A stretch of DNA of 64,000 nucleotides from Sanderia malayensis (lineage: Eukaryota > Cnidaria > Scyphozoa > Semaeostomeae > Pelagiidae), in assembly GCA_013076295.1 (NCBI GenBank), contig RQOL01000772.1, positions 2,232,001-2,296,000 on the forward strand. The letters are read 5' to 3'. Below, piece by piece: positions 18,421 to 60,579 of the stretch; position 1 is the first letter of the stretch, and each line of letters starts with the position of its first letter. The notes under the pieces are model-generated. The model did no database searches and was not told the origin of the DNA. It saw nothing but the letters and a program-made list of their open reading frames with translations. The position numbers and the translations under genes were made by a program.

Positions 18421-18460
18421 TCGACCAAAAAGAAAATTTTGTTTTTTGACCAGATCACCT

Positions 18461-22164: not shown

Positions 22165-23640
22165 ATTAAATGAAATGAAATTAATCATTAATATCAAATT
22201 TTCAGAAATCATTGCAAAATAAAAAATATATTACATAGTGGGACTCGAACGCAAAACCATTGGTATCTCCTGGTTCTTTATATAATAGTTGAAGAAACGC
22301 AGGGTGGAGGGTGGCGAATAGATCAGTCAGCAAGGCGCTGCATTACAACAAATTAGATTTCTGTGGACACGAGTTCAAATCAAGCAGTTTGGTGAATTTT
22401 GACGAATTAAACTTCTTTTACTAATTAAATAAATCATGAATATCAAATTTTCAGAAATCATTGCGAAATAAAAAATATATTACATAGTGGGACTCGAACG
22501 CAAAACCATTGGTATCTCCTGGTTCTTTATATAATAGTTGAAGAAACGCAGGGTGGAGGGTGGCGAATAGATCAGTCAGTAAGGCGCTGCATTACAACAA
22601 ATTAGATTTCTGTGGACACGAGTTCAAATCAAGCAGTTTGGTGAATTTTGACGAATTAAACTTCTTTTACTAATTAAATAAATCATGAATATCAAATTTT
22701 CAGAAATCATTGCAAAATAAAAAATATATTACATAATGGGACTCGAACGCAAAACCATTGGTATCTCCTGGTTCTTTATATAATAGTTGAAGAAACGCAG
22801 GGTGGAGGGTGGCGAATAGATCAGTCAGTAAGGCGCTGCATTACAACAAATTAGATTTCTGTGGACACGAGTTCAAATCAAGCAGTTTGGTGAATTTTGA
22901 CGAATTAAACTTCTTTTACTAATTAAATAAATCATGAATATCAAATTTTCAGAAATCATTGCGAAGTAAAAAATATATTACATAGTGGGACTCGAACCCA
23001 AAACCATCAGTGTCTCCTGGTTCTTTATACAATAGTTGAAGAAACGCAGGGTGGAGGGTGGCGAGTAGATCAGTCAGTAAGGCGCTGCATTACAACCAAT
23101 TAGATTTCTGTGGACACGAGTTCAAATCAAGCAGTTTGGTGAATTTTGACGAATTAAACTTCTTTTACTAATTAAATAAATCATGAATATCAAATTTTCA
23201 GAAATCATTGCGAAATAAAAAATATATTACGTAGTGGGACTCGAACCCAAAACCATCAGTGTCTCCTGGTTCTTTATATAATAGTTGAAGAAACGCAGGG
23301 TGGAGGGTGGCGAATAGATCAGTCAGTAAGGCGCTGCATTACAACCAATTAGATTTCTGTGGACACGAGTTCAAATCAAGCAGTTTGGTGAATTTTGACG
23401 AATTAAACTTCTTTTACTAATTAAATAAATCATGAATATCAAATTTTCAGAAATCATTGCGAAATAAAAAATATATTACATAGTGGAACTCGAACGCAAA
23501 ACCATTGGTATCTCCTGGTTCTTTATATAATAGTTGAAGAAACGCAGGGTGGAGGGTGGCGAATAGATAAGTCAGTAAGGCGCTGCATTACAACCAATTA
23601 GATTTCTGTGGACACGAGTTCAAACCAAGCAGTGACCTAG
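22165..23640. repeat. ~248-bp tandem array, 6 copies (right arm)
   Basis: Six units are marked by 'gacacgagttcaaatcaag' at about 22367, 22616, 22866, 23114, 23362 and 23608. They are in inverted orientation to the left array. On the plus strand each unit shows the A-box-like 'gtggcgaatagatcagtcag' and B-box-like 'gagttcaaatc'. Confidence 0.92.
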
Positions 23641-28000: not shown

Positions 28001-31000
28001 TTTCCTAAAAGCGACACCAAACACAAACTTTAGCACAAGAACCATTGTAACAATCAGTTCTGCTAATAAACAAGAAAATTCATAAAAACAACAAACTAAT
28101 TACCTGTTCTTGAAGTTTTTTGCGCAGTTTTTCCATTCCTCTGGTCGAAGCCCTTGAACTTGCGGGTCCATTTACACTGTCACGCTTACGGAATTTCGGC
28201 TGATAATTGAGAAAACAATTAGTTAATTGCAATATAAATAGAAAAATGTAAAAGATTGAATATTAGCAGTAATAAAATATGTCTTACCCTTACAAACGGC
28301 GAGGTGGAATCTGATGAAACTGATTGCGTAGGAACCAGAGAATCTTTTCTCATTTCTGATCGAAAATTTGCAATTGTTGCACGGAGTTTGTCACATTCTG
28401 ATTTTGTTGTCACTGGAACAGTCTGTGCGCCTAAATTTTATTCATATTAATTTGACTCTCAATCATAAACATGTGAACGAATTAATAAAAACGAAATATA
28501 CATTAATCTTACATTCCGATTCTTTGAATGGTTTTAGTTGAATATCAACAAGTGATAAATACCATTTACAAACATATGTTTCCCTGAAAATGTAAAAAAT
28601 AAAACAAATTGAATATCTGGTAAATGATTTCTAACAAAGAAGAATAAGTTTTGGATTATTTTGGCCCCAGCAAATGTTAACATATAAATATTGTTTGATT
28701 GATGATAAATAGCAAAATCAAACTCACTTTGATGGTTTTAATTTTGCACAAATTATCACATCATTCATCAAGATTAATGTTCTCATCTTTCTTTCACCTT
28801 CTGCAAATAAAATTAATAAGATAAAATTATTTAACTGCAACGAGATACAGGTTCAGGAAAGTAAAGTTGAAGATGAAACTTCCATCGATAACTTACCAAT
28901 TAACTCAACAACATTTGCTTCTTTAAGTAATTGTCTTTTTGGTGCTTTCTAAAAAATAAAAATGTTCTCTCATATTTATCTATCCTACATTTAATAAACT
29001 ACAGTAAACATGAAGATAAAAATTCTACAGAACAATAGATACCTTATCTGTTCTGTTTACATTGACTTGTTCAAATAAATCAAATAAGTTTGCTGTTGCC
29101 TCTGATAATAACTCATTATCAGGATGATCTTCTGGTGTATTCTTCAATAAATCCTTCAATTTTCAATGAAATTTTGGATCAGTATCAAAGTTCAATATTA
29201 CTATCAACAGATTGAAGGGTTTCGATTGGCTACTTACGTTAAGAATCAAAGAATACTGGGTCATTCTGTCAACTGGCTTGTATAACAGGGCTAAAATCAT
29301 AAAACATGTAACAGTTCATCAAATAGCATATATTTCTATAAATATCAAATAGTGGTGAGAAAAATATAATGGCAATACCAAGATAATGTTGTGCCAAATA
29401 TTTAGCAAACTTACCATCAAATTTAATTGGATCTTTCAGTGAAGGTATTTTGATATTCTATAAACAATGAATATAAATGCGTAAAATCATCACATAATAT
29501 AAAATTATTGCAATGATTATAAATGTGATTAATGTTAAATAGAATACCTTCTGAAGAATATTATCCAATTGTGCATTTGCATTTCTGCATTTCAGCAGTG
29601 TTTCTTGTGATGATTTATAGTTATTAATATAATCTTTATATACGCTAAAACCATCCATCTATAAGAAATCCGTAGATTGAATAAATTGAAAATTGATAGA
29701 TAAAGACAATTGCCAACTTGCAACTCTTTAAGAGAGTTTGGTGGAGAGCAAGGTACTCACCAATATTGTTAATAAATCTCCAATGACTTGGTTTTCATCC
29801 CAATTTAAGATTCTTGTCTTTAATTGCTCTAGTAAATCTCTGTGCAGATCATACAAGCTGTTTATCCCAAGGAATATTTTGTCAAATTCCATTTTGGTAA
29901 GAATTGGTTGCGATGTTTCAGTTGACTTTTCCAATGGCTTCATGTACTAATAAAATAATGATCAACCATAGAGAGTTGTACTATATGCAATTGCAAATTA
30001 TTGATGAATCAATGGACCATGTGACAGAGTAGCATGCTAGAAGCTTACTTTCTTAACCATGTCCAGGCAATCATAGTAGCATTTTTCACTTTCCAAAAGA
30101 TTTCTAACAAGATAAGTCCTCATTTTTTGACTTTCTCTATTTGTTGTCCCATCTTCTTCAGATTCTTCGGCTGCTTCACTTTCAACCTATAAAAAATAAT
30201 CCAGTAAAATTCCAATATAATATTACCCTTATAAGAGCATTACCCTGGCATAATGCAGTACTAGCTCCTCAAGCCCCACAACAGAAAAGATTAGCCTTAT
30301 CTTGTCAACCTCTCATACAAGCAGGTTTTACTACTTGCTTTTTGAAATAACTTACGCTTTGATTTTTTTGAAGGGGCTTCGGAATTTGTTTCACTGCAGG
30401 AAGTGAACATTCGTGTTTTTGATCTTGATTTTCAAATGGAACAGATGATGTTGCATCAGTGCCATCGTCAGAATCCAATGATTTATCATCTGCAGAAAAC
30501 ATTAAATCAATAACAAACAACGTACCTCTACATAACAAAATAACAAATTTAATAAAAATTAGAGATGGATTCAAATAATAATACCTAAATCATGAGATGA
30601 TTGACTCAAATCTTCATCGCTTTGCCATTTTCTTAAATTGTTAATTTCGTCTATTGTCATATGTCTGAACGTTGTCATCTTGGTTTCGTGTTTTCCACCG
30701 TCAGAATCATAATCAGATGCGCTATCATTACCATCAAGTCGAATGCCAGATGGAATCAATGTATTTTTCTGCATTAAATCAGTGATATTTTCATAAATAG
30801 CTTCTGATTCTTCTTCAGGTTCACAAATATCTTTTCTTGGTGGTGGTAATGGCTTTAATTTTGTTGGTTCATATGTGACATTAACTGTGACATTATCATT
30901 TCCATCATTATTATCATCATGGCGAGGTATACCGTCAATGAATCTGATTTCTTCATAAATTGGTGACTCATAATCAAATGCATTATCTTGTCGAGCATTC

Positions 31001-31734
31001 TCCTCAAAAGAATTGCTTTGATTTGAAGCGACATGACCTCTTTCTTCTCCGTCGCCATCCACGTAAACACTCCAACTGCCACCAGCTCGACGATTATCTT
31101 GTGTTTTCACACTCTCTTCAGTCAAAGTTTTCTCATGTTCATCGAAAGATAACAAGTCACTCACATTCTCATATTCTGGTTCTTCACCAACTTCGTCATC
31201 AACAAGGTTGAGGATTTCGAAACCGTCCTTCACATGTTTCGTGTTATCCTCAGGTAATGACTCAACTTGCTCGTGACTTTCCGTTTTAATGTCCATTTTA
31301 TTTATGTTGATAGTTGCATGTTCAATATCCTGCGTGGTCAAATTGCGTGTTAATTTCTCTTCTTCCAAATTCCCAGCATCTAACATCACGTTAGACTCCA
31401 TTTTCCCATCAATAGTTTGATCATTTATTTCCCTTGTTGATTCGGATTCTTTGTTATTCGCGCTAGGCCTTCTGTTTCCATCATCGACATTGTTTTTACT
31501 GATGCCTCCAACATTTCCAAGGACTGATATCTCGATGTCCAATGTTACCAACCAATTTAATATGAATTGCTCCTTTTTAATTTGCAGTTCAAGATCGCCA
31601 ATTCTTTTCTCGCATTGGATAATTTTACTTCGAATGTTAAGTTCATTAATTGAGTTGAAAAATGAAATATCCGGAGGTTCTTCATTTGGAAATTCTTGCT
31701 TCCATTCTGATAAAAATTTGTCTTTATCATCCAT
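25059..31734 (-). CDS. BCR: BCR/ABR orthologue (RhoGEF-RhoGAP)
   Basis: Twenty-six exons: 31734-30585, 30489-30356, 30186-30049, 29946-29761, 29658-29548, 29457-29415, 29290-29238, 29153-29043, 28948-28897, 28800-28728, 28583-28513, 28430-28288, 28199-28104, 28004-27942, 27816-27741, 27648-27575, 27406-27325, 27219-27157, 27037-26943, 26850-26746, 26658-26483, 26377-26316, 26206-26129, 26039-25905, 25733-25628, 25377-25059. All phases agree: 1264 residues (human BCR 1271). The N-terminus 'EWKQEFPNEEPP' plus a helix to about residue 66 matches the BCR oligomerisation coiled coil. Then come an acidic linker, DH (about 447-640, 'LLYKPVDRMTQYSLIL'), PH (about 645-870), C2 (about 886-1000, 'EFYCVLEVDSYGYFF') and RhoGAP (about 1035-1235, arginine finger R1061 in 'GIYRLSG', 'YFRELPEPLF'). 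Family role: cytoplasmic switch acting on Rac/Rho GTPases. Y188 (YENV) lies near the position of human BCR Y177. Confidence 0.95.
27228..27475. repeat. A+T simple repeats in BCR-like introns
   Basis: Two short microsatellites flank the exon at 27325-27406: an (AAAAT)n-type run at about 27228-27255 and an (AAAT)n-type run at about 27410-27470. They are intronic with no sign of function. Confidence 0.8.
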
Positions 31735-32373
31735 GATGAGGTTTTGCTTGCTGGTATCAATAAAAATAAACGCTTTGATATATTACTGCCACCATCCCAT
31801 TTCTTGCTCCTCGTAAAACCAACAACAACAAATGATAAATGAATAGATAGGCCAATCAAATATCAGCATTTCACAACACGCGGGGTTCCCGCATATTCCT
31901 CGTAACTTAATGATGTCATTAATCAAAAATAATAAATTTCTAAGTGTCATTGAATGTCATCGAGGTTCCAATAAGATATTCGTCATTCAACGTTCGCATG
32001 GCGATGCTATGGGATATAATTCCATTTATGGAACCAACAATGTAAGGGAGCTCATTCCTATTATATCACCGTTCTATTGTTTTACTTTAATCCATTATAT
32101 CCTCAGTCCATAAAATGACGTTATCATGTTACCAGGTCAATCGGCAGGTCTCTAAACAAAAGATAAATTTCTTTTGTCTTTTCACCTCAACGTGTTTGTG
32201 TGAGAGAAATTATAATCTAAATTATTCACAAAACCTTAAAAACATCAACAGCTAGTTTTATATAAGCGTATACAAATACAAGTGCATAGAAAATTGAAAT
32301 ACTTACAAAATACACAACGAAAAAATAATGCAAGGAATTAAAATAAATGCAAAATAAAGAGAATTAAATTATT
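31735..32373. other. Intergenic, BCR-like 5' flank
   Basis: 640 bp between the 3' end of the giant dystroglycan-like gene and the BCR-like start; both genes run leftward. The promoter and 5' UTR of the BCR-like gene should lie here. I see no TATA box or other gene. Confidence 0.4.
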
Positions 32374-35300
32374 TTAAACGAAGGAGTCATGCAGATAAGC
32401 ATTATCAAAATATGTTTTACTCTTTGAGCTGTGAGATTTCATTTCATAATTCAATGACGGTGAATTATTTCTTTTCATATCATACGAAGATGATGATAAT
32501 AATACTTTTCTTTGGTTAGATCTTTTTTGTTTTGACACATAATCATCATCAGAATCATATTTATCTTGGTGCCAATAATTTTTTACTTGTCCCATTTCTG
32601 ACTGATCGCCATTCATAAATCCATCTTCGTCATAATTCGAGATATTCGTGCTCAATTCCATGTTTCCATTGTCGTTATTTGAATTCCAAGCATTGGAATA
32701 AATATCATTTTTGTAAGACATTCTTCTTCTTATTGTCTTATTAGCACGTGGACTATACCTGAAGCAAAATATCCTCATTATTCCACGTGCAAGAATTAGC
32801 AAATAAGGTAATCATAAATCAATGGATTTCAAATCTTTACCTTATCTCATGGCTATTGTAGTAATCATCATTATAATTATAGTCATCGTTGTTAGAAGCA
32901 AGGGATCTGGTTCCCTTTAGCATTGTTGACTTTTCCAAAAATTCATCTGGTTCTTGTAATTTCATCTCAAAGTCTCTGGTCTAAAATAAAGAAAAATAAA
33001 GCTTAATAGATATCAAAATGCAATTAAATCAAAATATCACGGATTGAAACAAGAAAATAAATGCGCATTACCTTTGGCATTTGAAGAGGTTTATAATCCA
33101 TAAAATTTGATTCACTTGACCTTCTTGTTGATGAAAATGAATGCTCTCTTTTATCATTATCATTTTCATCATAGAATAATAAGCCAAGTTGATCGGAATT
33201 TTCAAATAAAAGTGGAACACTATGGCGCCTGCGATTATCTCCAAATTGTAATGCCATGAACTCATCTTTTCGCATTCTAATTTCAACTGGTCGGGTAATA
33301 CTTTGCTTTTTACTTGTTACTCTTGTTATTTCTGGCAAGATCATCATTTCAGTTTGATTTTGATTTTTATTCGCTTCATCATAAACCATCATAGACGTCT
33401 CCGTTTTAGCTTCATTGCGCATGTCCATTTTCATATTGCCCAATGAAAAGTCTGAATTGGATACTAATGAAACCTGGTTGAAATCGAGATTTGGTTGCGG
33501 CAATATTAGTTGTTGTTGTTGTTGTTGAATTGCATCGTCTTGGAAAACAAAATCAGATCGATCAATTAAATCGTGGCTTTCGTTTGACGTTCTCTTCATT
33601 ATACTTTCTTCAATATTTTCACTGTACTTGCTCATCCACGCATCTTTATCATCGATATTCAAATCTCTTGAATTCAATGACATTTTGCTTTGTTCTGCAT
33701 TCATATATTCCTCCATTATTTTCTTCTTATCCGATGTTGTATTATAAGAATCATTAATTTCATCGTTTGCTTCATCTCTTGAATCATTTTGAATTTCATT
33801 TTCAAAATTCAATGACTTTCTGAATTCATCATCGTCCCTTCTTCCTTCTGCTAACAAGTCAGCAAAGAAGTCATCTTTATTTTCACCAGATCTCCCCCCG
33901 CTTCGCTGTCCTGCATTGCGTGACATGTACAATGGCGGAGGCTCTGCTAATGGAGGTGGTGAAAATTCAAATTTTAAAGGTGTCTCCTCCACAGTAGCTT
34001 TTTCTTGCTTCATTTCATCCTCGATCACACCAGAATCGATTGATTTGGCCATAGCCTCGTTATCAGGTGGTGTAACCTCCTCTCGGCTATCAAAAGAATC
34101 ATCCGCGGGATTGTCTGCAGAATCAAAATCAGGTTCAGTGTAATGATCATCATCATCATCTAGGCCATCGTTTTCAAAGCCAATATTACGTCCATTTGGA
34201 TCAGGAGTTTTGAAATATGGTGGTGGAATTCTCATTGTTTCGTCATCATCGTCTTCTGCTCCTTTCACGATGGCTGTTTCGCTACCATCATTACGCGGCT
34301 TGCCTTTATAAAACATAACGGGATTAGATATTTGGTAAATCAATCCATTCGTAAACTCATCAGCAAATGATAATCTTGATGCAGTGTTTTAATTTACCTG
34401 CAACGCCATCTTCTTGCAAAGACGCGTATTTCTCGCCAGGCTGACAACATTTAGCGCAGCAACCGCAGTATGTCCCGCATCGATCCGCGCAGCAACGCGG
34501 GATGCATAGCCAACAACACCAAATAATTAGAAGCAGAATTGCCAGTATCAAAATCAGTATCAAAATCCACCAAGGGATTATTGGTTTTATTGGAGGGGGA
34601 ATGATAATTGTCGCATTCTTACAAGTTGGCATCTTCTCGTCTTTAACTTTGAGCACCTTTAAAAGAAAAGATAATATATATCTAAGAAGAATTTGCAAAA
34701 GAATCAATGATTGCATGGGAGGTTCCCGTGCCGAATCTGCTCAATTTAGCATTATCTAATGAAATCCAATAATCAATCGAACAAACCTGATAATCCGGTT
34801 TCATGAAATCCAAAAACGTCGGATTAACTCGATCATCTTGAAATAGAAACTTCTCTCGTATAACTTCGATAGTTTCATTTCTGCAATTCATTTCTGTCAA
34901 ATTTCGTATTCCCCACGTGACAACAGAACTCGTGGTGTTGATTGTTGAATTGTAATTCGTATAATCATAAATTAAAATTGATGATTTATTCATTTTGATA
35001 TATTCTGCAATTTTTTGAATGAATGTTTCCATTTTCGTACAATTTGTACCCAATGAATGTCGTAAGTACAGAATTATCTTATATCCAAGCTTAGGTGTAC
35101 TAATTTTCAACCTCGTAATGAAGGAATCTTTAGTCTCTCTTCCACATCGATCGCGTGCTATCATCTCATATTTTGTTGTTGATGTTGTTGTTAGCCAATG
35201 CATTTGCTCTGATCGATACAAAGTCAATATTCCGCAAATTTTGAAATTTTGTATCCTCAACCACGCTGTCGTATCAAGTTGCAAACCATTATAGTTTGCA

Positions 35301-38300
35301 ATATAAAGTGTTAAATTTTTGGTGAATCCATCTTCATAGTCATAAAATTTATCAACGCGAATATCATATATGAATACTTCACCAGGCTGAATAATAAGTT
35401 CATTTCTATCATGACGTAATTCTGGACTTCTCGTGTTACTGCAAACGCCATGTAAATTTTCTTTCACGTTATTTATTACTGTAAACTCGGGCTGAAAATT
35501 ATCCTTCAATAACTTCAAATTGACAAATTGTTGGCGAACTTTCTGAATTTTATAGCAGTCGCACTTGTCTCTTCGCATTGAGCAAAAACTCCACGAAAAT
35601 TGAAATGAATTAATGTTTCTCTGATATGATATGTCATTGATTGCAGAATCGTCAAAGAAATTGGCAATTTTCTTGATCAACAATATTTCTTGTGCAACAT
35701 TTGGAATGCTTGCTTCAAGCCTCGTTTCACCAGATAACAAAAGCTGATAAGAAATCTGAGGTAAATCACCGATTATTGTAATTGTTACAGTAGTTGATGC
35801 AGAGTTTCCTTCTTTATCGCTGGCAACCAAAACATACTTGAAAGCTCTTCGAAATTGTTTATTTAATCCTATTCGTGGATAGCCATAAATAACTTGCCGC
35901 ACTGCATCAAATTGAACCCAATTGCTCATTCCCAATGGCTCTTTGAATTCTGTTAATAATAATAATGATAACGACCTTGTATGGCCATCTTCTGGATCTG
36001 TAAATGTATCAATTGGGATTGAGAAGTTCAGCTTGGTGCAAATTGGAACTTGAATTGCCAAACTGCGATTAGCAACTGGAGGTAACGTGGATGGAATTTT
36101 ACAATTGTTGGCAAACTGCTCGATAACTCTGTTTATCTTGAAGTAAGGTTGAAGTTGCGATATCAGGGATGGATTCGTAATATTTTGAGCCACAAATATT
36201 ACCCTTTTTATTTCATTGATTGAGTGTCTGTCACACTGCTGTAAAGTACAGTTTGAAAATCGTATCTCTATTCTTCCCAATTGAACACTGTAGTAAGCAG
36301 TTACCTTTGTCTGATAAACATTGCTTTTAAACAAATTCTTCAATGCTATCTTGAGCTGAGCAATATAGAAGACTGGTTGAACACGAGTCGTTGTTGTTGT
36401 TGCTGCAAACAGATTCAACTGATACGGGGCTCGATAACTTTTGGATGTAAGGATAATTGTGATAGATGTATTAACAGTTTGTTGGCAGTTGTCTTTTGCT
36501 GATAATATCAACTTGTATGTGCCAGATTTAGTACTTCCATATGGTACAATGTATATGGCTTTATTGATCAATTGAACCCAGTAGTCAGCTCGAGGGATAG
36601 TCCCGTTTAGAAACATCATCGTCATTGAGAGATCACTTGCTGTTCCTTGCACTTCATCGTAGAATGTAGATGAAACATCAATAATAGACATTTCACAGTC
36701 ATTCAATTTGATAATGCTTAGTTTGTTTAATACTCTGGGTGCTGTATCAATTATATATGACGTAGAATTCTTTATTGATGCTATCATGAATGATTGAGAC
36801 ATGTAAATATAGAATTGGCTTTTTATATTCTTGTACATTGATAAGGTAGATTGATATGATACTTCAAGTTCTTTATGATTCTTCAAGCACAGTTTCTCTG
36901 GCACAGAGCAGATCCCATATTGCATGAAGTATGATTCAGAGCCAATTCCGTAAGAGCTGGTTTTAACAAAATTGAGAATTCTATACGTCGATAGAGATGA
37001 ACCAGACGTAAACAAAGATAGCATTTGCAGAAATTTGATTTGGATATCAAGATATGGTGCCGTTGTCAATATGGAGCCAACAGTGTAGAATGACATGCTC
37101 AATTTGTAGTATAATTCAGCATCAGATTGTATATTAACTGTCAAGGTTGTCTCTGCTTGCTTTCCACCCTTATCTTGAACTATTATAATAAACTTCCAAC
37201 CAAATGGTTTTGGTGTTCTGACGATACTTTCATGTGGATAAGAATAAATTTCTTTTGACGTTTCATTGAAACCAATCCAGGAATCTCTTGGTAATCGCAA
37301 ATTATCACGAGTTCTTATAGAAACCGTAAGGTTATTAATATCACCGTCTTCAATGTCTGAAGCAAAATCAGCTGGTAATTTGTATCGATACAAGCCACAT
37401 AATGGAATCGTCAGGTTCAGGCTATTTGGAATTATTGGAGGTTGATCCTTGCAATTATCTGTCACAGATATTACATTATATCCAAATGGAAATATTGATT
37501 TGAATTCTGGTCTGAGGTTTCCAGGTGATAGAAATATTTTGTTGTCGAATTGCTTAACATCTGTAGTGGTACAATCAATTGGAAGTCCGCAAACATGAAA
37601 CTTGACGATCAACCTTAGATCATTTCCTTGCTGTCGTATCACGGAGATAAGCTGTAGATCACTGCGACCAAGGTATGCTCTAAGGCTACTAAAAATAATG
37701 CTAACAAAGTAAGCATCGACATTCGTTGATGATATTCTTGTGTCAATTGTAAGACTGTATTGCAGACCAGAACCAGCAGGAATGCCATTAATTAGTAGGC
37801 TATCCTCAACGAAACTAGATGCTATTTGTCCAATATGATTGTTCATTAGGGCCCATGTGAAAGCTGTGCCATTCGTTGGTTGCACTTTCCAAGCATCTTC
37901 GTTCGGAAATGCTTCCAACACGCTTGACGTCTCATTGAACCAAAACCATGAAGTTATTGGAAGATTTTGAAAATCGTTCCCTTTTATGACAAGTTTAATT
38001 CCAGTTTCTAATTGATTGGTTGACAGAACTTTAAGGAAATCCACTTTTATTGTGGCACAGAAAGTGACGTTGTGCATAACACCTCGTATTCTGCGATTGC
38101 TTCTTGGTTGACACATTCCAGTTGCAGATAATGAAGAAGAAATTGGAAATTCAGGTTTCATATGTTGATTGAACAGAAGCTGTTGATTCTGAGCCAGTTC
38201 ATTGAATTTGATCATGCTGTAAGGATTGCACATTGTACAGTTGACTAATTTAATGAGCATGCGCAATGATGGCAAAAATTTCACAGATATAACTTTTAAT

Positions 38301-41300
38301 TGATTTTTTGGATCTTTGACCAGTGCAAAACTTGATACCTTACGCGTAATTGCCAATATTTTAACCATCTGATATGAAGTTTGAAGGGTTGTTTGATAAA
38401 GCAGTGTCAGCTCTTTATCGGCATATTGTATGTATGGTTTCCCATCAACTTTAATGATTAGAGTTGCAAACCCTGACTTTCCTGTGACGTCAGTCGCTTT
38501 TATGACATATCGATATCCATCTCGAGGCTGATTTATCAATGTTTCATTAAGAGGCAGTCCAGAAATTGTTTGTGTTTTATTGTCATAGATGACCCAACTA
38601 TCAAACTTAATCGTAGACTTATCGCTTGATAAAAATTCAATTTTTAAGGCTGTTGTCCCCCCGTCTTCATCAGAAAAGAAATCATTTGGAATATGATAAT
38701 TAAATTCGCCACATGAAGCCGCGGTGACAGTGGACAGCGGGTGTTTGGGCTTTGGCGGTTGATCAGTACACGTTGTTGTGTTGGCAGTGACGCTAATGAG
38801 TGTGAAATCAGGTTTCAATGAGTCAGCAAATGCCTGTGTGAATCCAGTAATCGAAGAAGAAGCATAAGTGAAGATCTTTTTCAGTATCAAATTTATTCTT
38901 TGGTAATAAAGTCCAAGATTTGTTTGAGATACACGTTGGGCATACCAGGTGCAATTAGAGAAGCTAATCGTGAGCTTGATAGGAAATGTATTACTTCGGG
39001 TGTAAGATATGATTTGTATTTGCTGCACCAAACTGTTGAAGAAGTTTGCAACTTTCTGCATGAATTTCTTTAATATATAAACGTCAGAGAGGTTTGGGTT
39101 GTAGCTTGTTGTCACTTCTGCCTTTATGAAACACAATCGACCAAACATTGAGTTGAATGTTTTGTAATCCGGGAACTTAATCTGCAGGCTTGTTGTTGCA
39201 ATTGAAGTTGAGCGCGAGTTCTTTGCTGTGATTATATACGTCATAAGAGATGAGAGCCTCGTATACACGGCGACCCCTTCTACTTGTTGTATGTCAGTTC
39301 TTAATGTAATGATAGATTTGGAATCGAGGCTACTTCCTGACGAGCTTTTCATTGTTAACAATAGTTGTCTTGTTGTTTCACCAACAGAACTGCTGAAAAC
39401 ATTGCTTGGAATATTATAAGTAATCAAACCACACACCGATTGGTTATTTGTCAATTTGTGAATTTTAACAACAACTGTTATGTTCGTTCTTTCTATACAT
39501 TTATCACCATCGATGAACAAATATGTCGGACTAAACTCTGGTTTCATTGCCGCTATAAATGCTTCACTTGGGTCTGGTTTATAAGCGACCTTCTGCAATT
39601 TCTGGGAAATGGTTGACATGAAACTTGGTGTACACTGCAGCTTGCAATGCTCAAATGTTATAGAATTGATAGCGTTATATGAAATAACCAGTATATCATG
39701 GGCTCCTGTCTTTTCATTCAAATACTTTGCAATCTTTCTGGTTATATTGACCAAAATATCTGCAGTTTTGCTTTTTTCGTTGAATAGACTTGTAAAGCCA
39801 AGCACAAACTTTGCATGTACGATAGGTGCTGCGTTTGCAATTTTAATCTTATAAGAGACATTTGCATGACGACCAGATGAGTCTGTAGCAAATATCATAT
39901 AATTGTAAATAGAATAAACAGGAACATTCTGTTTGACCTGTAATGTAACACTTCCATATACCTGTTTCTTTATTGGATCCAATTGGACCCATTCGCTAAT
40001 TGCAACTTCTTTTCCATTTGTGTAACGTAATGAAAGCTTCAAATTAGTTCCATCTCTTGTATCATTGAACAGATCAAACGCTAGCAAATCACTAAATTCA
40101 TGGCACAAGAATGCATAAGGTCGCAAGGTATCGACCTTTGAATACGGCGGCGATTCAATGCAACTATCACTCGCTTGAATACTCGTTAATGCGAAGCCGT
40201 TTAATGATAGGTATGCCACGAAGGGGCTTTTTGCTTTCCCATCTGCACTGATTATTCGAGAGAATATTGCTGTTATTGAAGATCTATGCGACTCATCTAG
40301 GCCCCACAGTGCAGCCTTCTTTGTTGCGAATACAAATGAACAGTTGCTGAACACCAACGAGTAAACAAATGTTGACATTTGTTGGAATCTTGATACTTTT
40401 ATATTGATTGTTGAGTCTTGATAGAAATTACTGATGGTTTGAACCAATCGATAGAGTACATCAATGTCAACCATGGCTGACGATCCAAATTGTCTTTTGA
40501 CGTTCATTGTGACAAGACAATCACTGGTATAAGGATAGTCCATTACATTAACTTGCATTTGCTTGTACGCCTTTAAGCCTTGACTATTTGTAGCCTCTAG
40601 TTGAAAATATGCTGTCTGTGAAAGAGGTTCGTTCGATGACGTAAATGAAGATGAGCTGTGATAAATTGCATAGATTTCCAATTTTGCAGTGTTGAGTTGA
40701 ATCCATGAATTTGAAGATAACTGCTTTTTATTATTGTCTAATAAAATGACTTTCATGTTATAGATCTCCCCATCAACAGAGTCAACAAATGTATCACGTG
40801 GTAATCTATAGCGCAATGGTGTACACATCGTAATATTCAGTTGAAGCCGAATTGACGATGGAGCAGGAGGCATGATGGGATTGTTACAGGATGAAACATA
40901 ATAGAAGCGCTCAAATGTTACCGGGAGACTATAAAATGCAAGTTTGAAGGTTGTAAAAGTTTTACGATTTGCATCGAAGAGCTCTCTTGTTTTTTGCAAT
41001 ACACTTGAAGTGCTGCATTGCTGGTAATTGTGAGTGGTCCATGTGAAGGTTCGAGATTCAAAAGGACCAGATTGTCCTGTATAAATTCTTGTTAAAATGT
41101 TGTAACCACCACCAAGGTTATAGAGCTGAGATGAAACATTACTCAAACCTATACTCTCGTTCACAAAGATGTTTTTATCGGCATTGTAAGTAAGAGTAAA
41201 TTCAAATGTGATGTTAAATGGTGTTACTCTTGAACTGCTACTCTGAAGCTTAGTTATTTCAATAAGAAGTGTTGCATTTTTACCACCAGAGTCTGTTGCC

Positions 41301-44300
41301 TGGAGATAGAAAACAAAACTTGTCCTTTTATCCATCCGCTCAGCATCACGTAATGACATCAACAAATATCTGGACACTATATCGATATTGATCCATTTCT
41401 CATTTGAAACACTCTTGTAACGGTCGTTTAGCAATGTTAGCTTCAAATTGAATGTATACCCATCTTCATAATCATAAAATAAACCCCACTGAATTGCCTC
41501 CTTGCGATAACCATGATATGGAACGGTATAGCTTAGCTTATTTATATTCAGTGCAACAATTGGTGGGATGTTCTTGCAAGAGCCAGTAAACACCGTCTGT
41601 ACCGATAAAACCGTAAGCTTGTTAAACGCAAAGTAAAATCCGGTTTGAACGGTTTTGCGATCGGTTTTGAATAAATTCATTAATATCTTGGTAACCAAAC
41701 CTTTATAATCCACTGGAATGTGAGATGAAGACGTTGCTGATACGTACTTCATGTAAGATGTTGAACAGTAACTCCAGGCAACGGTGAAAAGCGTATTTGA
41801 TTGGCGGATAAAATCAACCAATCCAATGTTAGAAGTATGGATGTTGAAATAGGATGCAAGTCCAGTGAGAACAACATGTGATAAAGCATTATTGCTGGCG
41901 CTACTTAATGAACTATGCGTACTGAACGTGATCCGGATTTGACAATCTTTTAAAACCTTTGCTGGTCCATAAAGCTTGATGTTAAATGAATTCAATGCTG
42001 AGAGCTGCGAAGTGTCTGTTGCTACCATATTGAATAAATACCCAGATATAGATTGCGATGATAATAATGTGGCAGTTGCATAAGCTGTTATTGTTTGTGA
42101 TGTTCTGTTAAATTGAATCCACGAGTTCAGAGAAAGTTGTTGATTGTTACCATCTCTTAAATTCAATGTTAATTTTCTTGTATTTCCTTCTTCAGTGTCA
42201 TAAAATGTGTTCGCAGGAATTCGAAATGTATAAAATCCACCGCATATTGAAATGTTTAGTTGAGTTATTTTTGATGTAACAGTTGGGGGATGATTATTTG
42301 CAACAGAACAAGGTGGTAAGATTTGCGCATGTCCATAATTCATCGTAAAATGAGATATCATTGCATTTCTCAATTCTGTGGTTACTACATTTGTCTGAGT
42401 AAAAAGTAACGATTTAATTCGATTTAAAGCTGCAATGTCACACGGACTGTATGATAATGAGCAGTTTGCGTAATCAAAGTAATGAACACCTGTAATTGGA
42501 CTAGTGTGTCGAATCAAACCCATGCTTTTAGACATTGAATCCTTTAAAAATGATTTCAGCATTTTAACAAATGTTTTCACTTCAATTTGGTTGTTATGGA
42601 AGGTAATTACAGGATGGAAAAACAGATGGAATATATATTTTGGCTCAACATGGGATGTGAAGGCAAATTCAATCTTCACTGATGCTTCCAAGCCTGTCTT
42701 GTCCGTTGCGACTAAAACAGAACTGTTAAACTTGTCAAGTTTCAATGCCTCATCTCTTGTTGGCCAACCATAAATTGTTTGACTTGTTTGGTTAAATCGA
42801 AACCAGTTATCAGACGGTATGGATGTACGTGGACTTAGATATAATTGAAGAGATAAATTTGATGTATTTCCATCTTCCGCATCGTTGAACATATTCGTTG
42901 GGACTTTTTCTTCAAATCCGCCACAATAATCAGCAGTTATCATCCATTTTGACACCAACGAAACTGGTGGATTCAAAGCTTGTTGGCACAATGGGTCTGT
43001 ATGTGTTGTCACTGATATTAAATTATATCTATAACTGAATGCGCTTGCAAATCTAGCAACTATGTTCTTTTTTGAATCAATCATTTGGTAGAAATAAAAA
43101 AGTGCAGCTTTCTCATCGCATTTCTTTGCCAAAGTGCAAATACCACATTTGACTGTAACAATATTAGTGTTCGAGCTTGATTTGGTATATGAAAGAATAT
43201 TGGCAAATCTAGATTGAAAGTATGAATTCAATGTTCGTAATATTTGTCTCTCTTCCATGAATCGTTGCCCAATCTGATTTGCTTTCAGTTCCAGTGAAAA
43301 TTGATAATTTTTTTGTGGCTCACTTCCAATTATTTTGATAAGAAGAAAGGTTTCAACATACAACCCTCCAGAGTCAGTGGCTCTTATTGTCAGGTTGTAT
43401 CCTCCTATTGGCTGATTTTGAAGTACTTCATTTGTCACGACACCATGCAAGGTGTGTTCACTTGGAACTAGAAGGACCCAATTATATGTGCTACTTATCG
43501 GAATGTTGTTTATCTTTGTAACTGAAAGTTGCAATGTCGAATCCTCTTCATCGCGAAATGTGGAGCTTGGCAAAGTGTAATTAAAATCAGAGCAAATGTG
43601 AACTTGTAGCATTGCAAGAGGATTGACTAAAATAGGTGGTGTATTCTTCATGTCGCAAACACCAAATTTAGCAACTTGGACGTATGTGATGTAAAAAATT
43701 GAAGTGCCCATTGCATTCTTGAATGCAGACAGTGTACCTCTTACATCGTTCAATTTTGATTCCATCACTGTAATCGAATTGTGGTCACACGTAGCATATG
43801 GAGCGGAGCAATTTACAATTTGCAGAACAAAGTATGGGTAAGAGGTACCAGAAACTCGTTGTGTGGAAGAAAACCGAAAACTACTTGCAGTAGTTCCAAA
43901 GTATGTCGAAAATTTGTCAATAAACGTTGATAAAATCGTGTTTTGACTTGGAGGGTTGGACGCGATCCAAGCAAAGTTGATTTGGATGGAATACGTCGCA
44001 TTTGGACGATTTCTATCAATGCGCATGTGCAAGTCAGCGTAAGTAAATAGACCACGTTTTGAAGTTGCCTTAAGCTTGAATTTCAAAGTTGAAGATGATG
44101 TTTTGATGTTCGCCAATGAATTATCAGATAGAACAACGCTCAATGTTTGAGTGTGTGCGTTGAACTCAATCCAGTTCTCCGCAATGCTTCCATAAGTAGA
44201 GCTTAGTAAAGCTAATGTTAGATTTCTTGTACTTCCATCCATATCATCGTGAAAAGTATTGTCAGGAATTTGATAAACTAAATACCCACATGAAGTGATG

Positions 44301-47300
44301 TTCAATATTGGCAAAGAATTTTGAACGATTGGAACATTTGTAACTGTCGTATTTTGATCGCAAGGCCCGCTTACTCCTTCCGAAGCACTGGACACGTTAA
44401 ATCGATGACCTAACGCAGAATTTACCTTGCTGTTCAATGTATTTGTTCCGGCAAGAAAAACGACATATCTGATCAAGTTAATAACAGTGCTATTGCATTC
44501 GCCTTTTGTCATGTGGCATGGACTCCAAACGAAAACAGCAGTAGATGAAAAATTGTTGCTATTGAGTAGACTGTATGAATGAACATGAATGCGAATACCA
44601 CCTGCAAATAACGTCTTCAAACCTTTCAATAAGGAAGCTATTTGAAGCACGTAAGGTTCTTTATCGATTTCCATGACATTAAGATGCATTGTTATGTTGT
44701 AATATGAAACAGGTTTGGTGTTGGTTAAAGTGAAATTCATTCGAATATTACTCGTCTTACCATCACTATCAGTTGCCACCAATCGAAAGATTTTACTCTT
44801 CAACCCATTTTTGTATGAACTATCATCTGCAATGGCATAGATTGTTTGGGATGTAGCATTAATATTCACCCAACTATTAACTGGCAATTTATTGTGATTC
44901 ACATCACTCAGATGCAAATTCAAATTCCGCGTAAAGCCATCTTCTTCATCGTTGAAAAGTTTTTCTGGCACAATGTAACTGGCAACATCACAAAATGAAA
45001 CAGGTTTTTTAGTGCGGAAGAAACTCAGAGCTGCGAAGTCTGCAAAGTTGAAGTATGGTGGATTTCGATTGGCTATTAGGCATTTACCAGATAATTTAAC
45101 CCCAACTTCTTCAACATGGAAAAGAGGCTGCATTGCTAAAACGAGGCTAGGATTGGGTGTAGATCGTGTTGATTGTTGAAGTAGCTTTGTCATAATTGCT
45201 TGGTAGCCCTTGACGTCACAAGCAGCGGTTCGTAGACTTGTATTTTGATAGTAAATTCTCATCTTGTTGTTTGATAGAAATGTTGTTTGATCTATGATGA
45301 CATTACTTGCTGTTGCCTGCTGGAAATATGCCTTCAAGCTCACAATGAACATTGTAACAACATTAGAGACGGGTAGAAGGGATGGCAGATATGAAAATTG
45401 AACAAGGTATGCCAAATGCGTCTGAGGTGCTGTCCAGTTTAATGAAATTGTCAAATTCTGATCAGCAGTGAATCCATTTCTATCAACTGCTCGTAGAATA
45501 AAACTAAAATTAGTTGTTGTGGTTGTTGCTAAGAAAGGCAAGCCAGAGATGAATCTTGAAGTAGAATTGAACCAAATCCAAGATGTCGGACCAAGTGGAT
45601 GTCCTTGTTCGTCAAGAAGAGACATATTGAAATTCAACCCACCACTGCCATCTTGAAACGTACTAATTGGCACTTGATACATCAATGGACCGTATTGCGG
45701 TATAAAAAGCATTGGAATTTTGTAATTTATAGTTGGACGATCACAAGCAGCTGATGGTTTGAAGAATACTGACGTCGGAGCAAATACAGCTGACTGATAA
45801 AGTCCATTTCTAACAATGTCATTGACTACGCCTCCACCAGTGGTTAATTTTTGATTGATTTCCTTGATTTTGACAAGGTCACAGGAAGACTGGGAGAGAG
45901 TTGAGAGGGTCCATGACAAAATGGTTGTTGTTGCTGTTATTTTGTATGACGTAATAATGATGGTAGATTCTGCGACACTCAAATACGTACTCATATATGA
46001 TACGAATGACCTTGCCACAGTTATGTACGATGCAGTAACAATTGAGTATTGCGTCATCACAATTGTATAAGAAACATTCTTCATGCTGGATTCCAAATTG
46101 AATTGAATGTTTTGGTAACTTTCCATTAGTAACGGTGTCAAGGCAACAAGTTTGAAAGAGTGAACATGCTGACCACCAGCCATTGACAGATCCACCAAGC
46201 CATGCAGTTTGACATTTTCATCAATGTAGCTTCCATTTAAACCAATCCAAAAATTCGATGCAACCTTCGTATTATTGCCAAATCGTAGTTGCAAACTTAG
46301 GCGCATGTTACTTCCCGGTGGCGTTGAAAATAGACTTTGGGAAATGGAAAATGAAAAATACTGACTTACTTGGATGTTTTGGGTTTTGAATTGTGAGCCA
46401 ATCACTGGAGGTTCTCCAGACAGGTAACCGCAAGCCAATTGAAACTCTTCTTTCGACGCCTGAGTGAAACTGAATTGCGGTTGCATTGCTTCTCTGAGCT
46501 TCTTCTCCGTCTCGTTTCCATGTAGATAACTACGCAATCCGATAATGCGGTTGACATTACAATTCTGACCAATCAGACGTGGAATGCTGAATGTGTATTC
46601 TATTGTGAGGAGCGAGTTGCGATATCTTGTGACATTCAACTTTTCATTTACAATATTGAAAACCTTAATGTTTAAATATGTTGCCAATTTACTTTGCAAG
46701 AGAAATAAAACATCAACATCTTTGTAGCTGTTCACCAAAACACTGTTTATTGATGATAATTTCTGTAAAGAATCAAATAAATTCTTAATTAAAAATTACA
46801 ACTACACAGAACAAGTCTCAATCCTCCTATATTGGGTAAAGGCTTGAGTTCAAGCTCTCATGAAAGGAAGAAAGGATGAAAATGGTTAAAAATTGTTAAA
46901 TATGAAACATACCAGATGCGTTAAATAATTTGCTGGATTAATAGGTCCATTAAATGTAACTGTGACAGTAGTATGACCTTCTCTGCCACTTGAATCAATT
47001 GCACTTAACTTGAACTTGTATCCACCGATTGGTTGGCTATCAAAGATCGCTTTAGAAGAATAAATTCGAAACATTTGCTCGGGCAATTTCAAACTAATCC
47101 ATGAAGTTCTTGGTATGACGTCACCATTTTCATAATAAAGATACAGACTCAGGTTTCTAGTGTTGCCATCTTCTTTATCTCGGAAAACAGCAGAAGGGAG
47201 CTGATAAGAAATTGTAAATGTTGTATTCTTTATTACAATCGAAGGGCTGTAGACAACTTGAGGTCCTTCTTGTGCTGTTAAGCTGAAAAATAGCAAAAAA

Positions 47301-47423
47301 CAATGATGATATGCAAAAATAAACATAAATACTTTCATTAAATTCTTAATTATGTCTACTACAGTTGTTTTCTTACCCTGAAAGAAACGCAACAGCAACT
47401 ATAACGGCAATTCGAGATGCCAT
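32374..47423 (-). CDS. Giant multi-module dystroglycan-like type I membrane protein
   Basis: Seven exons: 47423-47377, 47282-46913, 46762-34787 (11,976 bp), 34656-34398, 34303-33072, 32980-32841, 32758-32374. Phases agree: about 4802 residues. An in-frame ATG at 47483 would add 20, but the ATG at 47423 gives a clean signal peptide (MASRIAVIVAVAVAFLSG-like). The ectodomain is about 18 repeats of ~230 residues. Each has a CADG (dystroglycan-type cadherin-like) domain, pattern hPxxxFxDxxDGxTRxLxLxL...SWhxFN...xxhYG...hxATDxxG, then a SEA-like domain of about 110 residues with paired cysteines and an M/LxPxF ending. This order is that of the membrane-proximal part of vertebrate dystroglycan. One helix follows (WWILILILILAILLLIIW, about residues 4160-4180), then Cys-rich juxtamembrane sequence and a ~620-residue acidic tail with PPPY and PPLY. 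Dystroglycan links matrix to dystrophin; adhesion or anchoring is inferred. Exon 1 was found by signal-peptide and phase reasoning and is less sure. Confidence 0.88.
34787..47282 (-). repeat. ~18 tandem CADG + SEA-like protein modules
   Basis: Protein-level repeat with a period of about 690 bp. The first CADG is on exon 46913-47282, and the other 17, with all SEA-like domains, are on the single 12-kb exon. Well-preserved modules include those with 'IPDNTFHDDMDGSTRNL', 'LPSSTFRDEEDS', 'IPANTFYDTEEGNTRKL', 'IPIDTFTDPEDGHTRSL' and 'VDKFYDYEDGFTKNL'. Modules 2, 12, 14 and 16 have degenerate acidic motifs. Nucleotide identity between modules is low, so the expansion is old. Confidence 0.88.
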
Positions 47424-47789: not shown

Positions 47790-50700
47790 CACATTCATTC
47801 GGCAGAACGGTCTAAATAGTACTTTTCAACTACTTTTCTTCCATATTTCAATCAACTTCAATTCTGCATTTTCGATTTTGCATATCCATGGTAGATACAT
47901 AAAGAAATTCAATTGCCGCGGCCAGTCCCCGCATCTAACTTTTGAACCAATTGTCCTAGAGAGCTGAAACTTGTGTCACAATGATCAGAAGGCCCCAATT
48001 AGTAGGTTTCGACTATTTGTTTGCCAAATTTCGGTCAATTTCAAAATGTCATTTTTGGCATTTGAACGTTCTTGGAGTATACATAAAGTAATTCACTTGT
48101 TGCAGCAAGCCCTCGAGACCAACTTCTGAACCAATTGTCCTAGAGAGCTGCAACTTGTGTCACAATGCTCAGAAGGCCCTAATTAGTAGGTTTCGACTAT
48201 TTGTTTGCCAAATTTCGGTCGATTTCAAAATGTCATTTTGGGCATTTGAAGGTTCTTGGAGTATACATAAAGTAAATCACTTGTTGCAACAAGCCCTCAG
48301 GGACCAAATTTTGAACCAAATGTCCTAGAGAGCCGAAACGTGTGTCAAAATGATCGGAAGGCCCTAATTAGTAGGTTTCGACTATTTGTTTGCCAAATTT
48401 CGGTCTATTTCAAAATGTCATTTTGGGCATTTGAATGTTCATGGAGTATACATAAAGTAAATCACTTGTTGCAGCAAGCCCTCGGGACCAACTTTTGAAC
48501 CAAATGTCCTAGAGAGCTGAAACTTGTCTCAACATGATGGGAAGGCCCTAATTAGTAGGTTTCGACTATTTGTTTGCCAAATTTCGGTCTATTTCAAAAT
48601 GTCATTTTGGGCATTTGAAGGTTCATGGAGGATACATAAAGTAAATCACTTGTTGCAGCAAGCCCTCGGGACCAACTTTTGAACCAAATGTCCTAGAGAG
48701 CTCAAACGTGTCTCAAGATGATCGGAAGGCCCTAATTAGTAGGTTTCGACTATTTGTTTGCCAAATTTCGGTCTGTTTCAAAATGTCATTTTGGGCATTT
48801 GAATGTTCATGGAGTATACATAAAGTAAATCACTTGTTGCAGCAAGCCCTCGGGACCAACTTTTGAACCAAATGTCCTAGAGAGCTGAAACTTGTGTCCA
48901 AATGATCAGAAGGCCCTAATTAGTAGGTTTCGACTATTTGTTTGCCAAATTTCGGTCCATTTCAAAATGTCATTTTGGGCATTTGAAGGTTCATGGAGTA
49001 TACATAAAGTGAATCACTTGTTGCAGCAAGCCCTCGGGGACCAAATTTTGAACCAAATGTCCTAGACAGCTGAAACTTGTGTCAAAATGATCGGAAGGCC
49101 CTAATTAGTAGGTTTTGACTATTTGTTTGCCAAATTTCGGTCTGTTTCAAAATGTCATTTTGGGCATTTGAATGTTCATGGAGTATACATAAAGTAAATC
49201 ACTTGTTGCAGCAAGCCCTCGGGACCAACTTTTGAACCAAATGTCCTAGAGAGCTGAAACTTGTTTCAACATGATGGGAAGGCCCTAATTAGTAGGTTTC
49301 GACTATTTGTTTGCCAAATTTCGGTCTATTTCAAAATGTCATTTTGGGCATTTGAAGGTTCATTGAGTATACATAAAGTAAATCACTTGTTGCAGCAAGC
49401 CCTCGGGGACCAAATTTTGAACCAAATGTCCTGGAAAGCTGAAACGTGTCTCAAGATGATCGGAAGGCCCTAATTAGTAGGTTTCGACTATTTGTTTGCC
49501 AAATTTCGGTCTATTTCAAAATGTCTTTTTGGGCATTTGAATGTTCATGGAGTATACATAAAGTAAATCACTTGTTGCAGCAAGCCCTCGGGACCAACTT
49601 TTGAACCAAATGTCCTAGAGAGCTGAGACTTGTCTCAACATGATGGGAAGGCCCTAATTAGTAGGTTTCGACTATTTGTTTGCCAAATTTCGGTCTGTTT
49701 CAAAATGTCATTTTGGGCATTTGAATGTTCATGGAGTATACATAAAGTAAATCACTTGTTGCAGCAAGCCCTCGGGACCAACTTTTGAACCAAATGTCCT
49801 AGAGAGCTGAAACTTGTGTCCAAATGATCAGAAGGCCCTAATTAGTAGGTTTCGACTATTTGTTTGCCAAATTTCGGTCCATTTCAAAATGTCATTTTGG
49901 GCATTTGAAGGTTCATGGAGTATACATAAAGTAAATCACTTGTTGCAGCAAGCCCTCGGGGACCAAATTTTGAACCAAATGTCCTAGACAGCTGAAACTT
50001 GTGTCAAAATGATCGGAAGGCCCTAATTAGTAGGTTTTGACTATTTGTTTGCCAAATTTCGGTCTATTTCAAAATGTCATTTTGGGCATTTGAAGGTTCA
50101 TGGAGTATACATAAAGTAAATCACTTGTTGCAGCAAGCCCTCGGGGACCAAATTTTGAACCAAATGTCCTGGAAAGCTGAAACGTGTCTCAAGATGATCG
50201 GAAGGCCCTAATTAGTAGGTTTCGACTATTTGTTTGCCAAATTTCGGTCTATTTCAAAATGTCTTTTTGGGCATTTGAATGTTCATGGAGTATACATAAA
50301 GTAAATCACTTGTTGCAGCAAGCCCTCGGGACCAACTTTTGAACCAAATGTCCTAGAGAGCTGAAACTTGTCTCAACATGATGGGAAGGCCCTAATTAGT
50401 AGGTTTCGACTATTTGTTTGCCAAATTTCGGTCTATTTCAAAATGTCATTTTGGGCATTTGAAGGTTCATGGAGTATACATAAAGTAAATCACTTGTTGC
50501 AGCAAGCCCTCGGGACCAACTTTTGAACCAAATGTCCTAGAGAGCTGAAACTTGTCTCAACATGATGGGGAGGCCCTAATTAGTAGGTTTCGACTATTTG
50601 TTTGCCAAATTTCGGTCTATTTCAAAATGTCATTTTGGGCATTTGAAGGTTCATGGAGTATACATAAAGTAAATCACTTGTTGCAGCAAGCCCTCGGGGA

Positions 50701-51330
50701 CCAAATTTTGAACCAAATGTCCTGGAAAGCTGAAACGTGTCTCAAGATGATCGGAAGGCCCTAATTAGTAGGTTTCGACTATTTGTTTGCCAAATTTCGG
50801 TCTATTTCAAAATGTCTTTTTGGGCATTTGAATGTTCATGGAGTATACATAAAGTAAATCACTTGTTGCAGCAAGCCCTCGGGACCAACTTTTGAACCAA
50901 ATGTCCTAGAGAGCTGAAACTTGTCTCAACATGATGGGAAGGCCCTAATTAGTAGGTTTCGACTATTTGTTTGCCAAATTTCGGTCTATTTCAAAATGTC
51001 ATTTTGGGCATTTGAAGGTTCATGGAGTATACATAAAGTAAATCACTTGTTGCAGCAAGCCCTCGGGACCAACTTTTGAACCAAATGTCCTAGAGAGCTG
51101 AAATGTGTCTCAAGATGATCGGAAGGCCCTAATTAGTAGGTTTCGACTATTTGTTTGCCAAATTTCGGTCTATTTCAAAATATCATTTTGGGCATTTGAA
51201 TGTTCATGGAGTATAGCTACATAAAGTAAGCTAAATCACTTGTTGCAGCAAGCCCTCGGGACCAACTTTTGAACGAAATGTCCTAGAGAGCTGAAACCTG
51301 TGTCAAAATGATCGGAACCGTCTGAATAGT
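47790..51330. repeat. 184-bp satellite array, about 19 copies
   Basis: Units of about 184 bp are marked by 'ggccctaattagtaggtttc' at about 48176, 48361, 48545, 48730, 48914, 49099, 49283 and so on to about 51127. The first and last units are diverged, and the last carries small insertions (about 51217-51235). Variants at one position (caacatgatggg, caagatgatcgg, ccaaatgatcag, caaaatgatcgg) recur in blocks, indicating higher-order amplification. Open frames of 70 codons within the array are by-products of the repeat. Confidence 0.95.
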
Positions 51331-60143: not shown

Positions 60144-60579
60144 CAATACTGGCTGCCTAATTTTATTATTTTTTGACATTATTATAGAGGGTGATTCGAC
60201 TAATGTATTATAACGTTGATGTGTATAAATTCGAATATTCTGTGTGCTATTGAGAAGTTATTGTCTCCAAGTTAAACATGTTTTCGATGAAAAAAAATGA
60301 AACAGAGTGACTGTGTAATCCTGTTTCCTGTTGTTTGATTGGCCATTCATTATGCAGAATTGATCAAATTAATGAAACTAAGTGAGGTTGCGGCATTGAT
60401 GTTTAAAAAATAAGAGCGAACACGATTTAATTAATTGCCTTGAACCGACAAAATGCGGGAGCAAATAAAATCAATCACGTGACTCTCAGATTTGAACGAT
60501 GATATGGGATTCTTTGACGCCAACCTGCACATCAAACTGCAACTGGGAAACGAATAGCTTCATAGAAAGAATAGCAGAG

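Follow-up and report, generated by a model that had tools for sequence, protein, structure and literature searches.

A giant Sanderia malayensis membrane protein built from 18 tandem dystroglycan-type units, most of them probably locked by a disulfide

The 64,000-nucleotide stretch of Sanderia malayensis DNA analysed here (assembly GCA_013076295.1, contig RQOL01000772.1, positions 2,232,001 to 2,296,000; hereafter the window) carries on its minus strand a gene whose product repeats 18 times the membrane-proximal unit of dystroglycan (DG). Seven exons join into a type I, single-pass membrane protein of 4,802 amino acids (aa), and the first-pass annotation, made from the letters alone, had the coordinates exact, as well as the seven exons and a length of about 4800 residues; the signal peptide, the single transmembrane helix and the long tail that it had read were borne out, the helix by a hydropathy maximum. 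The approximately 18 tandem CADG + SEA-like modules it had announced were delimited as 18, each of the DG membrane-proximal type, and a Pfam check of exon 3 returned He_PIG (1.7e-13) and DAG1 (4.3e-11). Exon 3 encodes module 18 except for its last 12 aa, which come from exon 4. The EukProt protein P0002 is identical to the window protein except for 38 residues of module 11 that the public model skips, and a pseudogene or an assembly artefact was ruled out by the 3,992-codon open frame of exon 3, purifying selection and the existence of homologues. Taken as a whole, the sequence makes it rather probable that this protein is a giant receptor assembled from DG units, most of which would be locked by a disulfide, with the membrane-proximal copy left unlocked and the tail linked to PDZ proteins.

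The whole module matches the CADG and SEA-like proteolytic domain of vertebrate DG (PDB 8yt8, 8uf4, and 9c3c), and the unit by which DG is recognised (IG2_MAT_NU, i.e., CADG + SEA-like next to the membrane) is found in the window protein. Pfam SEA gives no match in this protein at E 1. The CADG half has a fold that resembles cadherin domains, which brings to mind cell-cell adhesion of the type of Fat and Dachsous, the giant cadherin adhesion molecules, with opposing giant ectodomains binding in trans, either homophilically or between paralogues; we consider this improbable, given that Pfam Cadherin reaches 15.1 bits (E 0.032) against a cut-off of 28.8. In the alignment to 8yt8, all 18 modules are without the Gly-Ser maturation site, which both ordinary DGs of the genome have: module 18 reads T-S-S-V-V-T-W at the place of R-G-S-I-V-V-E-W in DG, and a G-S-I-L lies away from the site, in module 15 (aa 3368). 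Cleavage into alpha and beta chains at each module was rejected on account of this absence. Homology searches returned 15 proteins with the window protein as query (one being the gene itself) and three more with P0014 as query; among the 322 modules of this set, the window's included, a loose pattern (Gly-Ser and two hydrophobic residues near the site) fits three, namely module 16 of P0003, module 8 of P0005 and the membrane-proximal module of Clytia. A mucin-like Ser/Thr/Pro-rich region is likewise absent from the window protein (maximum Ser+Thr+Pro 0.34 per 100 aa vs 0.57 and 0.58 in the ordinary DGs). According to the parts of the literature consulted here and below, some accepted DGs, those of nematodes and Nematostella, also lack the maturation site, and nematode DGs have no mucin-like region (PMC4582122). 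The qualification "dystroglycan-like" thus holds for the module, the single transmembrane helix and the long tail, but not in the strict sense, since the mucin region is missing and the protein ends in D-S-F-V. A basic run, RSNRRIR (38084-38104, aa 3026-3032), lies at the border of modules 13 and 14 and is a possible protease site in the ectodomain.

Four conspicuous cysteine columns run through the window modules. Two are those of the SEA-like half of DG. A second pair is formed by a column in the early part of CADG and another that comes after the strand following the maturation site; it is complete in 13 modules, wholly absent from five and never reduced to a single residue. Over the 322 modules, both cysteines were counted in 234, neither in 61 and one in 6, 21 modules having been set aside for missing residues. 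Among the remaining five column pairs no positive association reaches significance, that of the CADG cysteine with the first DG column being negative, and the second pair is absent from the three DG units compared. We give more weight than to any p-value to joint gain or loss at one orthologous position: at position 11 of the P0003 order (window module 9), seven sequences have both cysteines, eight have neither and none has a single one, while neither is present at positions 10 and 13 of P0011 and P0012 or at position 6 of P0018. The second pair is probably a CADG-SEA disulfide. According to PMC6586460, the DG unit acts as a proteolytic switch: left intact it withstands cleavage, and destabilising it increases the cutting. 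Bonding its two halves to one another should lock the switch. The membrane-proximal module lacks the second pair in 15 of 15 cases, the window protein included.

The modules have kept their individual identities. Their number is 18 in the window protein, 20 in P0003, 15-20 in P0004-P0013 (from ENA, several of them cut), 18 in both P0014 and P0017, an uncharacterised protein of the hydrozoan Clytia hemisphaerica, 26 in P0018, 16 in P0019, 15 in P0016, and 12 in P0015. Window and P0003 modules are reciprocal best matches in order (18/18), and two modules found between window modules 4 and 5 in all of P0003-P0013 (11/11) are missing from the window protein. Positions 5-20 of P0003 pair in order with 15 of 16 modules in Clytia, 15 of 16 in P0014 and 13 of 16 in P0018; P0016 and P0019 are not collinear with P0003 positions. 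A tree of 130 modules recovers 18 of the 20 position groups as clades (support 0.93-1.0), the exceptions being positions 7 and 15; the groups for positions 1-4 contain just two members each, and of the 16 groups with a Clytia member 14 are retrieved. Owing to the collinearity of Clytia and to these clades, about 16 modules would have stood in their present order before the lines leading to the Sanderia genome and to Clytia parted. The orthologue search that the first-pass annotation had called for has yielded relatives with modules in a shared order. Comparison with other sequences also brought out the covarying cysteine pair, the paralogues and the PDZ-type C-terminus, none of which that annotation had noted. 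On the full-length tree, the window protein and P0003 are sisters (support 1.0) close to P0004-P0012, and the paralogue on contig C815 branches further out; P0003 shares 55.6% identity over shared columns and the same seven-exon plan, and it differs by its two extra modules and a head resembling the DG N-terminus, both missing from the window gene. A surface-coat or barrier protein that holds cells and particles off, comparable to the SEA-array membrane mucin MUC16, would have in its favour the very long repeated ectodomain, the SEA-like domains and 70 N-glycosylation sequons, but the lack of a Ser/Thr/Pro-rich region, the module-by-module conservation and the conserved tail motifs, which point to specific contacts, make it a poor candidate.

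Beyond the membrane, the CIPRCC core of a Cys-rich stretch is common to the window protein, P0003, P0014, P0017, and the C815 paralogue, and PPxY motifs occur in the tails of the window protein (two), P0003, P0014, and P0017. All five C-termini that were reached in this family are of the form D/E-S-x-V (DSFV in the window protein and P0003, DSYV in the C815 paralogue, DSSV in P0014, and ESSV in P0017), which we take to be PDZ class I ligands; P0004-P0013, P0015, and P0018 seem to end at exon borders. A second giant type ends otherwise, with EFYAI and DLEV (P0019 and the C726:4.70 paralogue). No Pfam family was found in the exon 5 tail at E 0.01. We name this set the giant CADG/SEA family with Cys-rich juxtamembrane, defined by collinear modules, CIPRCC, internal PPxY and a PDZ-type end, and the window protein belongs to it. 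P0017 (4,646 aa) and P0014 (4,661 aa) share with it the 18 modules, the transmembrane and Cys-rich stretch, PPxY and the PDZ-type C-terminus, and differ in their outer modules, in their overall identity (27.4% and 29.6%, respectively) and, for Clytia, in a last module that retains Gly-Ser. As the 4,661-codon frame of P0014 nearly fills its 14,329-base contig, this contig suggests a transcript that joins ectodomain, transmembrane helix and tail.

In the explanation that we favour, the ectodomain, a chain of 36 small domains that in extended form would by our estimate measure on the order of 100 nm, would hold adhesion or matrix contacts at a great distance from the cell. The CADG-SEA disulfide in 13 of the 18 modules would lock the unit that serves as the proteolytic switch of DG, so that most of the chain could bear load uncut, while the membrane-proximal module, always unlocked, might still work as a DG-like shedding switch and the tail would be coupled to PDZ (perhaps WW) scaffolds and not to dystrophin through a DG-type C-terminus. 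It is tempting to extend this proposal, much more tentatively, to medusozoans at large, which may have made a building block of the DG switch, with a mostly disulfide-locked chain, an unlocked shedding switch near the membrane, a PDZ output and position identities that predate the split between scyphozoans and hydrozoans.

Several observations weigh against these proposals. The putative disulfide is deduced from covariation, and the modules are related by descent, so that the p-values overstate their independence. The SEA-half pair of DG, taken as control, shows no positive association (236 both, 4 neither, and 82 single); the test hence fails to pick up at least one pair for which a bond is expected, a miss that we ascribe to the small number of modules having neither cysteine and to insertions that shift the column. 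Single cysteines of the second pair occur at position 10 of P0005, in five other modules and in module 6 of the C726:4.70 paralogue. Nor is the membrane-proximal module alone in having no such pair, modules 1-3 and 9 being free of it too; what marks it is constancy, not uniqueness. In Clytia this module reads N-G-S-L-F-T-W, and cleavage may survive there; the modules of P0003 and P0005 mentioned above fit the loose Gly-Ser pattern as well. Modules 7 and 8 modelled together (predicted local distance difference test, pLDDT, 84.8, confident within modules; predicted template modelling score, pTM, 0.54) give no support for a stiff, straight rod. Finally, the P-P-P-Y of the tail would leave room for a dystrophin WW link, and the predicted PDZ motif is only four residues long.

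We searched the whole genome (184,004,477 bases, 918 contigs) for DG-related loci, whose numbers are lower bounds since only the best candidates were scored. Two of the one-module genes, at 2.55 and 3.35 Mb of contig C569, have a Ser/Thr/Pro-rich stretch (0.58 and 0.57), Gly-Ser followed by hydrophobic residues, basic residues after the transmembrane helix (by eye), and one and three PPxY near the C-terminus; they look like ordinary DGs, and the window gene was for this reason rejected as the DG of the genome. A related alternative is that of an enlarged DG, a laminin or matrix receptor coupled to dystrophin in which the repeats are a mere spacer, as proposed for the Nematostella protein. The module identical in type, the PPPY of the tail, and the sarcoglycan and dystrophin-type EF-hand_3 exons present in the genome speak for it, as does exon 1 of P0003, which encodes a head of about 260 residues for which PDB, searched up to E 10, offers nothing but three entries of the alpha-DG N-terminal domain (E 0.74-1.7; GYPV-x-W is matched), a weak but specific likeness. 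We nevertheless regard an enlarged DG as unlikely, because two ordinary DGs coexist with the window gene and a mere spacer needs no orthologue-by-orthologue upkeep of positions. Moreover, besides the Ser/Thr/Pro-rich region and the Gly-Ser site, the window gene is devoid of the N-terminal IG1 + S6 head, its signal peptide being directly followed by module 1 (the P0003 head exon searched against the window gave a best E of 0.36, nothing significant), and its C-terminus is of the other type, the PPxY being internal only and not at the extreme C-terminus where DG binds dystrophin. Within the P0003 head, a basic run of furin type (residues 129-134) lies between the IG1-like part and the S6-like one; the furin site of vertebrate DG is located after S6. 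The second giant type at C726:4690515-4701119 has PPPPY in a tail resembling that of P0019 and is not collinear with the window family; its modules 7-9 are very alike at the maturation site, as if recently duplicated locally.

Table. Coordinates of the giant gene, its modules and motifs in the window, and of the related loci elsewhere in the genome
Feature	Position	Strand	Description
Exon 1	47377..47423	-	start codon and signal peptide, continuing into exon 2; signal peptide MASRIAVIVAVAFLSGLTAQ judged by eye
Exon 2	46913..47282	-	signal peptide end, CADG half of module 1
Exon 3	34787..46762	-	11,976 bases, 3,992 aa; SEA-like half of module 1, modules 2-18
Exon 4	34398..34656	-	module 18 end, transmembrane helix, Cys-rich juxtamembrane
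Exon 5	33072..34303	-	acidic cytoplasmic tail
Exon 6	32841..32980	-	tail
Exon 7	32374..32758	-	tail end and stop
Module 1	exons 2-3	-	aa 21-256; leave-one-out score 115.8 bits; no second Cys pair
Module 2	45743..46411	-	aa 257-479; no second Cys pair
Module 3	45065..45742	-	aa 480-705; no second Cys pair
Module 4	44345..45064	-	aa 706-945; Cys pair C730/C888
Module 5	43643..44344	-	aa 946-1179; Cys pair C964/C1124
Module 6	42974..43642	-	aa 1180-1402; Cys pair C1196/C1348
Module 7	42293..42973	-	aa 1403-1629; Cys pair C1419/C1573; fold predicted
Module 8	41567..42292	-	aa 1630-1871; Cys pair C1646/C1805; modelled jointly with module 7
Module 9	40874..41566	-	aa 1872-2102; both cysteines of second pair missing
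Module 10	40154..40873	-	aa 2103-2342; Cys pair C2119/C2280
Module 11	39488..40153	-	aa 2343-2564; Cys pair C2359/C2512
Module 12	38762..39487	-	aa 2565-2806; Cys pair C2583/C2743
Module 13	38108..38761	-	aa 2807-3024; Cys pair C2823/C2981
Module 14	37445..38107	-	aa 3025-3245; Cys pair C3041/C3197
Module 15	36755..37444	-	aa 3246-3475; Cys pair C3261/C3424
Module 16	36083..36754	-	aa 3476-3699; Cys pair C3495/C3644
Module 17	35432..36082	-	aa 3700-3916; Cys pair C3714/C3866
Module 18, membrane-proximal	34787..35431 + exon 4	-	aa 3917-4143; no second Cys pair
Transmembrane helix	34519..34572	-	aa 4160-4177; hydropathy maximum 3.32
Cys-rich juxtamembrane	34444..34518	-	aa 4178-4202; 11 Cys in 25 residues; core CIPRCC
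PPxY motif PPPY	34215..34226	-	aa 4244-4247, internal
PPxY motif PPLY	33927..33938	-	aa 4340-4343, internal
C-terminus D-S-F-V	32377..32388	-	presumed PDZ class I type
P0003 locus	C726:3.075-3.095 Mb		20 modules
C815 paralogue	C815:3.506-3.515 Mb		about 13 modules
Second giant type (L016, L017)	C726:4690515-4701119		10 modules
One-module loci, four	C569:2.55, C569:3.35, C829:2.54, C569:0.85 Mb		

About 600 bases past the stop of the giant gene and in the same orientation begins the first frame of a BCR-family gene (25062-31782, minus strand), with a Bcr-Abl oligomerisation domain (30574-31782, 25.1 bits for a cut-off of 23.1) and a RhoGAP exon (25062-25442, 32 bits); on the other side, a satellite array (47937-51317, 18.3 copies of a 184-base unit, 94% matches) ends about 500 bases before the start codon. 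Further away, two 249-base repeat arrays (97% matches) flank a segment (16199-23633) in which a reading frame recurs inverted (19100-19492, plus; 21094-21486, minus), the whole looking like a large inverted mobile element. The window also holds a homeodomain exon (8854-9339, minus; Pfam 73.8 bits), which we presume to be LIM-homeobox-like, a C2H2 zinc-finger protein (58554-59381, plus) with an 18-base tandem repeat coding MKPFYE-type units before the fingers, and a fibrinogen C-terminal domain protein (60496-61575, plus; 195.8 bits), to which a frame at 63628-63999 is possibly related (by eye).

Regulated cleavage of the membrane-proximal unit of DG is a subject of muscle-disease research (PMC6586460). 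With up to 26 copies of this unit, a maturation site lost from nearly all those examined and an added cysteine pair in most of them, the giant proteins amount to an experiment of nature in what locks the switch and what opens it. A genome with two ordinary DGs can also hold giant relatives of DG, and surveys that start from human DG may overlook these or mistake them for DG. Cases of two and six units have been described (PMC4582122 and PMC5216574); within the open-access literature, subscription journals being outside our scope, the article parts covered contained no DG with more than six such units, and those of PMC10293626 and PMC6441219 mention none with multiplied units. In Turritopsis, dystroglycan is up in medusae, its kind not being stated in the part consulted (PMC8480191). 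The statement of the first-pass annotation that it knew of no described DG of this size and architecture has to be tempered by the six-unit DG of Nematostella, of which the 18 units here are a more extreme instance. Four features go beyond the literature found: the copy number, the conservation of each module's identity, the covariation of the second cysteine pair and the presence of ordinary DGs in the same genome.

Compared with vertebrate DG, the window protein shares the match over the whole module and, for 14 of its 18 modules, cysteines at both columns of the DG SEA-like half, with a tolerance of three columns, whereas a single unit, the N-terminal domain pair, Gly-Ser cleavage, the mucin region, the C-terminal PPxY and the lack of a CADG-SEA cysteine pair are proper to the vertebrate protein. 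MUC16, Fat, and Dachsous have in common with it a very long repeated ectodomain on one transmembrane helix, built from different domains. The closest published parallel that we found is the DG of Nematostella vectensis, with six tandem IG2_MAT_NU units (Adams & Brancaccio 2015, PMC4582122), whose repeats have been suggested to keep its N-terminal region at a greater distance from the cell (PMC4582122). Going by the published descriptions (PMC4582122; gene structure PMC5216574), both proteins show tandem multiplication of the unit, repeats gathered in one large exon and a maturation site that is not conserved; the sections consulted report no covarying second cysteine pair in Nematostella, and the number of units is 6 against 18 here (20 and 26 in relatives). 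The Nematostella protein has been presented as a DG proper, with the C-terminal half the best conserved; in Sanderia, by contrast, two ordinary DGs stand beside the giant, whose tail is of another type.
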